NCBI RefSeq assembly: GCF_010119195.1
Contig: NZ_WRXL01000006.1
Coordinates: 62,001-126,000, forward strand
Length of the DNA: 64,000 bases
Source of the DNA: Haloarcula salina
GTDB lineage: Archaea > Halobacteriota > Halobacteria > Halobacteriales > Haloarculaceae
Direction: 5' to 3'
Within the stretch, counting starts at the first letter, position 1; the number at the start of each line of letters is the position of its first letter. The translations under genes were made by a program, and so were the position numbers. Positions 60,026 to 62,536 of the stretch are shown here, one piece after another. The notes beneath the pieces were generated by a model. The model was not told where the DNA came from. It ran no database searches and worked only from the letters and a program-made list of their open reading frames with translations.

Positions 60026-60220
60026 TTATTCGCGAGAGCTTCGTCGGTCGGTCACACGACTCGCCGGGAACAGGGTCATCGTCGCTCTAGGGTCACTGCA
60101 CATCCGAACCCACTGCCGTCGTTCGATCGGTGTGTCGCTCTCCTGAACCCGGTCGATACCGTCGACTGTCTCCGCTAAGGACATCCGACTCGTGTCAGAC
60201 GTTCGACTCGTGTCAGACAT
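60026..60220 (-). CDS. Possible small protein divergent from cdrL
   Basis: A 64-codon frame starting MSDTSRTSDTSRMSLAETVDGIDRV and ending VTDRRSSRE. The first twelve residues come from a 15-base tandem repeat with an 18-base period. CATTATCAG on the minus strand about 25 nt upstream could drive a leaderless mRNA. There is no known domain and the C-terminal half is basic, unusual for this organism. The alternative is that the repeats are regulatory DNA of cdrL and the frame is accidental. Confidence 0.3.
   Translation of the reverse strand: MSDTSRTSDTSRMSLAETVDGIDRVQESDTPIERRQWVRMCSDPRATMTLFPASRVTDRRSSRE
60186..60218. repeat. Two 15-bp direct repeats upstream of cdrL
   Basis: CGACTCGTGTCAGAC occurs at 60186-60200 and 60204-60218, separated by GTT. 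They end 50 bases before the cdrL start codon. Confidence 0.75.
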
Positions 60221-60267: not shown

Positions 60268-60885
60268 ATGAGTAAGATCACGTTCCGTGCGGACGACGAC
60301 CTCATCGAGCAGCTAGAGGCGTTCGACGCCTCGAAGAGCGAGGTCATGCGCGAGGCGCTCCGAGAGTACCTCGGAGAGTCGGAGACGCAGTCGTCCGACG
60401 CGGCGTCGGTCGCGGACCCCGAGACGATCGACGAGCTCATCACGGAACGCGTCGACAGCATCATCTCCGAGCGACTGGAGGAGCGGGTGCCGACGCGGCC
60501 CCGCCAACCTCAGGACGTCAACGTAAACATCTCGCTGGACGGTACGACACGGGACGGTCTGTCGGACGAAACCGCCCGACAGCACGTGTCTGACACCGAC
60601 GCCGACGGCGACGACGAGCGGTCGTACGCCGACGGTCAGACAGCAGGCGCGACCGGGCGTAAGACAGAGGGAGACCGGCGTGCCGGAACCGGCGAGGAGC
60701 CGCGTAAGACGTGCGCGCAATGTGGCGGAAACGTGGGCACAGACCACGTGTACTGCCCGAATTGCGGAGAGAAGTCGTCCCGGCGCGTGTTCTGTGATTG
60801 CGGCGACGAGCTCCGGTCGGACTGGGGCTTCTGCCCGAGCTGTGGGAGACGGACGCCCGCTGCCGACGTGCTCGATCAAGCCTGA
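60268..60885 (+). CDS. cdrL: CdrL-like ribbon-helix-helix protein with double zinc ribbon
   Basis: A 205-residue protein. Residues 1-40 form a ribbon-helix-helix DNA-binding unit (MSKITFRADDDLIEQLEAF, then SKSEVMREALREYLG). A disordered acidic middle follows, with SDETARQHVSDTDADGDDE. Two zinc ribbons close it: TCAQCGGNVGTDHVYCPNCG and FCDCGDELRSDWGFCPSCG. Size, order and position before cdrS-ftsZ2 match the long cell-division regulator of haloarchaea. It probably binds the promoter region between it and cdrS. The ATG at 60268 starts directly at the ribbon strand. Confidence 0.85.
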   Translation: MSKITFRADDDLIEQLEAFDASKSEVMREALREYLGESETQSSDAASVADPETIDELITERVDSIISERLEERVPTRPRQPQDVNVNISLDGTTRDGLSDETARQHVSDTDADGDDERSYADGQTAGATGRKTEGDRRAGTGEEPRKTCAQCGGNVGTDHVYCPNCGEKSSRRVFCDCGDELRSDWGFCPSCGRRTPAADVLDQA

Positions 60886-60930
60886 AACGACGTTTACGCC
60901 CGCCAGAAGCACTGTAGGGCCGTAAACGAC

Positions 60931-60947
60931 GCAGTGTATGACACTGC
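60931..60947. promoter_or_regulatory. Perfect inverted repeat just upstream of the cdrS-ftsZ2 TATA box
   Basis: GCAGTGT-ATG-ACACTGC. It ends seven bases before the TATA-like TTTTAATA (60955-60962), overlapping the expected BRE region. Confidence 0.6.
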
Positions 60948-60954
60948 CCGTAAG

Positions 60955-60962
60955 TTTTAATA
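60955..60962 (+). promoter_or_regulatory. TATA box of the cdrS-ftsZ2 operon
   Basis: TTTTAATA is the only A+T-rich element in the 236-base region between cdrL and cdrS. It predicts a start near 60984 and thus a leader of roughly 140 nt, much longer than for other genes in this window. Confidence 0.55.
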
Positions 60963-60987
60963 CATCAGGGTCAGTGGTACATCTTGC

Positions 60988-61005
60988 GTAAGACGGTCGT
61001 CTTAC
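60988..61005. promoter_or_regulatory. Perfect inverted repeat at the predicted cdrS-ftsZ2 transcription start
   Basis: GTAAGACG-GT-CGTCTTAC. A related single half (CGTCTTACC) recurs at about 61096-61104, 18 bases before the cdrS ATG. GTAAACG-type heptamers at 60891, 60922, 61055 and 61074 flank it. Confidence 0.6.
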
Positions 61006-61121
61006 ACAACGGAGAGAGCGAGGGGATGACGCCCTCGTACTGCGGTTCCGACGTGTAAACGGACGGGCGGGCCGTAAACGCGGCCCGGTCGCACCGTCTT
61101 ACCCAAGGGGAACTACCAAAC

Positions 61122-61301
61122 ATGGAGCGTGTGACACTACGGATTCCGAAGCAGCAGATCGAAGAGGTCGAACAAATGGTCGAGACGGGCGAGTACCCGA
61201 ACCGTAGCGAGGCGATTCGCGCGGCCGTCCGGGAGATGCTCGCCGAGGAAGGCTCCGAGCGTGCCTCCGAGAAGCAAAAGCGGTCCTGGGCCAAGGTGTA
61301 A
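61122..61301 (+). CDS. cdrS: CdrS, short ribbon-helix-helix cell-division regulator
   Basis: A 59-residue CopG-type protein: [19 protein letters not shown], then [20 protein letters not shown]. The first strand pairs in a dimer to contact DNA, and the [13 protein letters not shown] helix is the family signature. A short charged tail ends WAKV. It lies two bases before ftsZ2, the conserved haloarchaeal cdrS-ftsZ2 unit in which CdrS controls ftsZ2 and other division genes. It is too short for most gene callers but certain in context. Confidence 0.95.
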
Positions 61302-61303
61302 CG

Positions 61304-62536
61304 ATGCAGGACATCGTCAACGAGGCCCTCGAACGCGACGAGCAGGAACAGAAGCAGCTGTCCGACGAGAACGTCGACGGGTTCGGCGACCCGCGAATCG
61401 TCATCGTCGGCTGTGGCGGTGCCGGGAACAACACGGTCAACCGCCTGTACAACATCGGCGTCGAGGGCGCCGACACCGTGGCCATCAACACGGACAAGCA
61501 GCACCTCAAGATGATCGAAGCCGACACGAAGATTCTGGTCGGCAAGTCCCTCACCAACGGCCTCGGGGCCGGCGGTGACCCGTCGATGGGCGAGCGGGCC
61601 ACGGAGATGGCACAGGGGACGATCAAGGAAGTCCTCGGCGACGCGGACCTCGTGTTCGTCACCGCCGGGATGGGCGGCGGGACCGGGACCGGCGCGGCCC
61701 CGGTCGTCTCGAAGATCGCCAAGGAGCAGGGCGCGATCGTCGTCGGCATGGTGTCGACGCCGTTCAACGTCGAGCGAGCGCGGACGGTCAAGGCCGAGGA
61801 AGGCTTAGAGAAGCTCCGCAACGAAGCGGACTCCATCATCGTCCTCGACAACAACCGCCTGCTCGATTACGTCCCGAACCTCCCGATCGGCAAGGCGTTC
61901 TCGGTAATGGACCAGATCATCGCCGAGACCGTCAAGGGCATCTCCGAGACCATCACCCAGCCGAGCCTCATCAATCTCGACTACGCCGACATGACCTCCA
62001 TCATGAACCAGGGCGGCGTCGCGGTGATGCTCGTGGGTGAGACCCAGGACAAGAACAAGACCGAGGAGGTCGTCAAGGACGCGATGAACCACCCGCTGCT
62101 GGACGTGGACTACCGCGGCGCGAGCGGCGGGCTGGTGCACATCACCGGCGGCCCGGACCTCACGCTGAAGGAGGCCGAGGGCATCGCCCAGAACATCACC
62201 GAGCGCCTGGAGGCCAACGCCAACGTCATCTGGGGCGCGCGCATCCAGGAGAACTACAAGGGCAAGGTTCGCGTCATGGCCATCATGACCGGCGTCCAGT
62301 CCGCGCAGGTGCTGGGTCCGACGACCCAGAAGCAGGCCAACAAGTCCCGGCAGGCGATCCAGGAGGTCGACGACGACACCTCCTTCGACGCCTCCGACAA
62401 CGTCGAAAGCTTCGACAGCCCGGCCGCGAACGGCGGTCGAAGCGGCGGCCGCAACACCGGCTACGGCGAGACCGACGGCGGACAGGACCAGCACGAGAAG
62501 AACAACGGCCTCGACGTCATCCGGACGAACGAGTAA
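61304..62536 (+). CDS. ftsZ2: Cell division protein FtsZ2
   Basis: A 410-residue tubulin-superfamily GTPase. The nucleotide loop is [22 protein letters not shown], the tubulin signature [20 protein letters not shown] (about 122-141), and the T7 loop contains [11 protein letters not shown]. The N-terminal extension ([19 protein letters not shown]) and pairing with cdrS mark it as FtsZ2 rather than FtsZ1. FtsZ2 constricts the division ring in haloarchaea. The C-terminal tail is disordered (about 345-410) and ends in DVIRTNE. Confidence 0.97.

Follow-up and report, generated by a model that had tools for sequence, protein, structure and literature searches.

Control of the cdrS-ftsZ2 operon probably operates at two levels, through operators of an RHH regulator in the DNA and through a structured leader RNA at the start of the message. 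The words that make up the putative operators and their spacing are conserved, as is the structure of the RNA, and both are distributed class-wide in the Halobacteria. The features are given below in coordinates of the window, that is, the whole 64-kb stretch of DNA that was analysed.

60268–60885, plus strand: cdrL (Pfam CdrL_M, DZR and RHH_1, all over cut-off)
60891–60928, no strand: CGTTTAC ... GTAAACG heptamer pair, ahead of the first repeat (sequence)
60931–60947, no strand: putative upstream operator GCAGTGT-ATG-ACACTGC, an inverted repeat with 7-bp arms (sequence)
60955–60962, plus strand: TATA box TTTTAATA (sequence; similar box at compared loci)
60986, plus strand: predicted transcription start, approximate (spacing from the TATA box)
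60986–61121, plus strand: predicted structured leader RNA, a three-way junction of P1, P2/P3 and P4 (fold, covariance model, covariation)
60988–61005, no strand: putative start-site operator GTAAGACG-GT-CGTCTTAC (sequence, cross-genome conservation)
60988–60996, plus strand: word A, GTAAGACGG, 5' strand of P1, pairing with word D
60998–61061, plus strand: P2 (60998–61007 with 61053–61061) with apical P3 (predicted fold)
61064–61091, plus strand: P4 hairpin with a GUAAAC loop (predicted fold)
61094–61102, plus strand: word D, CCGTCTTAC, 3' strand of P1, immediately ahead of the SD-like stretch
61105–61111, plus strand: SD-like AAGGGGA, directly after word D
61122–61301, plus strand: cdrS (Pfam RHH_1; NikR-like match in a PDB search)
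61304–62536, plus strand: ftsZ2 (Tubulin and FtsZ_C domains; FtsZ2 identity from its position behind cdrS)

Judged from its domains, the product of cdrL is a regulator composed of RHH, CdrL_M and a double zinc ribbon, and a likely reader of the GTAAGAC words described below. The initial annotation had placed a dense control region ahead of cdrS, with a TATA box adjoining the repeat GCAGTGT-ATG-ACACTGC and a leader of about 140 nt. This picture held: the repeat ends at 60947 and the box begins at 60955, the leader measures 136 nt (60986–61121) when counted from the predicted start near 60986, and conserved operator-like sites accompany it. A TATA-like box also lies approximately 28–30 nt upstream of the start-site palindrome in the compared loci. 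No long ATG-started frame was seen within the leader. For Haloferax cdrS, a transcription start site and a 5' UTR are described in the accessible text of PMC8406309.

The start-site palindrome is an inverted repeat with 8-bp arms, holding two words (A and B) 11 bp apart. Such a palindrome is not rare by itself, as perfect inverted repeats with 8-bp arms and spacers of 0–4 occur at 27 start positions in the window; the strong evidence is its conservation between genomes. The initial annotation had made its proposal depend on the repeats being kept in relatives, and across the Halobacteria we found them kept class-wide. GTAAGAC followed 2–6 nt later by GTCTTAC was present in 116 of 117 loci, in nearly all of 30 more loci picked to cover deep lineages, and in 50/50 additional genomes, a sample drawn from covariance-model R1 matches and biased towards the leader. 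Spacing between A and B equals 11 bp in 55 of the 68 non-redundant leaders, while some genera show gaps of anywhere between 2 and 6 nt, which is awkward for a rigid operator. Within the 3.79-Mb genome, GTAAGAC-N4-GTCTTAC has a single site at up to one mismatch, and its next-best relative carries two mismatches. Relatives of the same genus share their leaders with named Haloarcula records, which makes Haloarcula or a near relative the very likely source of the DNA. One two-mismatch relative elsewhere in the genome, GTAAAACGCACGTTTTAC (locus L002, 1501–1518), is flanked by a small minus-strand ORF and by an ORF that by eye resembles UMP kinase.

A related word recurs upstream: GTATGAC (60936–60942) sits within GCAGTGT-ATG-ACACTGC, 50 bp ahead of the first base of the leader. 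Words of the GTAAGAC/GTATGAC type lie between −85 and −25 in 52 of the 68 non-redundant promoters, most of them at −50 ± 1, against a background of 0.6% per 60 nt. The further genomes carry such a word upstream in 44 of 50 cases, of which 30 are at −50 ± 2, and Halorussus-, Haladaptatus- and Halobacterium-like genera have a complete second palindrome at this position. The two different perfect inverted repeats reported earlier are therefore both present, but they contain the related words GTATGAC and GTAAGAC and are not unrelated elements.

The four GTAAACG heptamers of the initial annotation are also present (GTAAACG or CGTTTAC at 60891, 60922, 61055 and 61074) and strongly clustered, with four in 236 bp versus ~0.011 expected; the count of GTAAACG across the 64 kb is 5, versus 3.08 expected. 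We considered them as one conserved operator and rejected this, since two fall within parts of the leader RNA (the 3' strand of P2 and the loop of P4) and the other two are not class-wide. The sequence CGTAAACG at the heptamer pair recurs by eye in many members of the genus.

By sequence, GTAAGAC words mark cdrS promoters and GTCAGAC marks the promoters of ftsZ1 and cdrL. The GTCAGAC-type word occurs in 12/16 ftsZ1 promoters and 37/67 cdrL promoters, and in only 3/68 cdrS promoters. The ftsZ1 promoter of the same genome (locus L189, ~1265–1295) reads GTCAGACGCGTGTCAGACG, with two words 11 bp apart, an arrangement like that of most relatives compared; at ftsZ1 the spacing is 11 bp in 18/22. In the cdrL promoter of the window (60183–60218), GTCAGAC words stand at 60194–60200 and 60212–60218, upstream of a GATTGAAATA box, and looser words at 60183 and 60201 lie 11 bp ahead of each. 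The cdrL reading frame itself contains two GTAAGAC words (60659–60665 and 60704–60710).

Methanogen relatives served as an outgroup. According to the accessible text of PMC7439475, they are without CdrL, and they possess cdrS-ftsZ without a match to the leader model. GTCAGAC-type words were found in 29 of their 31 regions upstream of cdrS-ftsZ (one of the 31, L297, is a false start, and 30 have FtsZ downstream), and 26/30 word distances inside a region are exact multiples of 11 bp. Short repeated words at regular helical spacing, as looked for in RHH operators, are thus seen in the A–B pair, in the outgroup and at ftsZ1.

The leader itself is predicted to fold with a minimum free energy (MFE) of −65.3 kcal/mol and a z of −4.45. 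Over 68 non-redundant leaders the mean z is −3.78, compared with −0.45 for coding controls, and leaving out words A, B and D gives a mean of −1.47, which is only modestly structured. Word A forms the 5' strand of P1 and word B the 5' strand of P2, with word C as the P2 partner of B; in the MFE structures of the 68 leaders, A:D is paired in 88% and B:C in 82%. By eye, word D is missing in three deep lineages (L173, L187 and L188), and in Halobaculum-like loci C reads GTGAGG, which is still able to pair with B.

A covariance model of the leader matched 376 of 391 Halobacteria genomes, spanning 80 of 84 genera, with a single match in nearly every one of these genomes, and in the subset of matches where position was compared, they stand just before cdrS. 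The model had no match among the non-Halobacteria genomes of the phylum sample, and a search of Rfam identified no family for the leader (the best was mir-4018, at 17.7 bits versus a gathering score of 66). Weak opposite-strand matches in L103, L042, L071, L112 and L263 mostly cover the leader start and upstream DNA, as expected from the inverted words. By these models, the 136-nt leader is a conserved structured RNA, a feature absent from the initial annotation. The accessible portions of PMC7439475, PMC8406309, PMC4983044, PMC8303175, PMC7247131 and PMC7617429 describe no structure for the cdrS leader; literature coverage was short on subscription journals, and an earlier description is possible.

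The conserved secondary structure is accompanied by covariation, with weak significance for single pairs. On alignment A4, which like A5 was fitted to the covariance model, the covariation score was 0.241, compared with 0.053–0.114 for slid structures, and 22/37 pairs had substitutions at both positions in at least one sequence. Under a simplified phylogenetic null, the best three of 5565 column pairs all lie within the structure, as do the best five of 5671 in a second alignment; the E-values from this simplified null are rough, the best being 0.03 and 0.07, with just one pair below 0.05. A structure-blind MAFFT alignment of 132 leaders placed inner P2 pairs at ranks 1, 2, 6 and 10, with a pair of P1 at rank 7. 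RNAalifold on A4 recovered P1 and part of P2 only. P1 provides little covariation evidence because it hardly varies.

How the words divide between DNA and RNA can be judged from their phasing. C and D are out of 11-bp phase with A, unlike the ftsZ1 and outgroup words, and RNA pairing explains them better than DNA phasing does. The A–B pair, in contrast, keeps the 11-bp phase of ftsZ1 and the outgroup, so the start-site palindrome seems to double as a DNA operator and as the 5' strands of the RNA. We think it unlikely that every GTAAGAC word, leader included, is simply an operator half-site and the RNA fold a by-product of inverted repeats. The upstream copy outside the transcript and the related arrays in the outgroup agree with such a reading, and the words themselves supply much of the folding energy of the leader; however, C and D are out of phase with A, the structure-blind alignment shows covariation of inner P2 pairs that lie outside the words, and the Halobaculum-like GTGAGG departs from the word yet can pair with B. 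The converse, in which the palindrome works solely at the RNA level, as a 5' hairpin or switch element, without any protein reading the DNA, would suit the near-universal pairing potential of A and B with loops of 2–6 nt. In the 68 leaders a forced A–B hairpin averages 5.2 kcal/mol above the MFE, a difference that also agrees with that reading and makes a switch between A–B and A–D/B–C possible in the model. We regard an RNA-only role as very improbable, given the same word ~50 bp upstream, outside the transcript, the full second palindrome in some genera and the in vivo binding of the region by CdrL in Halobacterium (PMC7439475). A ligand-sensing riboswitch would match the class-wide three-way junction, its near-invariant segments and the two possible pairings of A. 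It is improbable for a leader that occurs nearly always as one copy per genome, ahead of one operon, that has variable segments within stems and no evident compact invariant pocket, and in which neither a poly-U terminator nor masking of the SD-like stretch was seen.

With the palindrome taken as both operator and RNA strand, the question of its reader concerns two RHH proteins. In Halobacterium, ChIP-seq of CdrL picked out a single bound region, the one upstream of cdrS-ftsZ2 (PMC7439475). CdrS ChIP in Haloferax gave 18 sites, the ftsZ1 promoter being a target, and the accessible text of PMC8406309 does not name cdrS among them; no word sequence for CdrS is given in the portion of that text that was searched. 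We favour CdrL as the reader of GTAAGAC and infer CdrS as the reader of GTCAGAC, because of the distribution of the words by promoter together with the CdrL ChIP-seq peak. The initial annotation had suggested operators for both proteins in this region; the words fit CdrL, whose ChIP-seq peak is confined to this region, better than CdrS. Autoregulation, with CdrS and not CdrL reading the GTAAGAC words, would be in keeping with CdrS being of the RHH type and showing a NikR-like match, and with the outgroup cdrS promoters, whose GTCAGAC arrays are one base off GTAAGAC. The absence of cdrS from the named Haloferax sites (PMC8406309), the presence of GTCAGAC and not GTAAGAC at the CdrS target ftsZ1 and the CdrL peak at cdrS-ftsZ2 (PMC7439475) make this quite unlikely.

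We therefore propose the following mechanism around CdrL. At the DNA level, an RHH regulator, most likely the CdrL protein of the adjacent gene, would recognise the word pair at the start site and the word or words just upstream of the TATA box as its operator. A protein bound at the start site would compete with initiation, and the simplest expectation is that cdrS-ftsZ2 transcription falls when CdrL is abundant, the sign being our inference. At the RNA level, A and B would pair with D and C to form the three-way junction, which closes just ahead of the ribosome-binding region and may adjust how well the cdrS-ftsZ2 message is translated or how stable it is. For its part, CdrS is the probable reader of GTCAGAC in the ftsZ1 and cdrL promoters, which would close a two-regulator loop. 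In Halobacterium, cdrS-ftsZ2 mRNA rises without a proportionate increase in ribosome footprints, for which the authors propose post-transcriptional control of cdrS/ftsZ2 (accessible text of PMC8303175); the mismatch is compatible with such control of the operon. A more ambitious version, doubtful as a whole, holds jointly that CdrL reads the palindrome as DNA, that the same palindrome as RNA picks the A–B hairpin or the A–D/B–C junction and so links initiation to translation, and that GTCAGAC gave way to GTAAGAC as the operator word at the time the CdrL paralogue emerged.

Babski et al. (PMC4983044, accessible text) report that most Haloferax transcripts are leaderless and judge structured-leader control untypical of haloarchaea. 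A structured leader matched in 376/391 genomes ahead of cdrS-ftsZ2 would clearly depart from that rule. It offers a way into the question of how cells set the expression of their division genes, so far only partly understood, and with GTAAGAC and GTCAGAC told apart, the CdrL/CdrS circuit can be tested one site at a time.

The NikR operator is GTATGA-N16-TCATAC. NikR and other RHH operators share with our sites an RHH protein as reader, a proposed one in our case, and the NikR half-site resembles GTATGAC; unlike in the NikR operator, the words here are close-set, ~11 bp apart. Pfam found no NikR-type metal-binding domain in CdrS or CdrL, and CdrL has zinc ribbons. The CdrL/CdrS system of Halobacterium and Haloferax comprises the same genes in the same order, and CdrL binding upstream of cdrS-ftsZ2 is published for it; the accessible texts (PMC7439475 and PMC8406309) contain no CdrL site sequence, leader RNA structure or difference between CdrL and CdrS words. 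Archaeal ribosomal-protein leader RNAs, a set that includes the Halobacteria S15 leader, precede genes other than cdrS-ftsZ2 and, going by their description in the accessible text of PMC7247131, are likewise conserved structured 5' leaders ahead of one operon.
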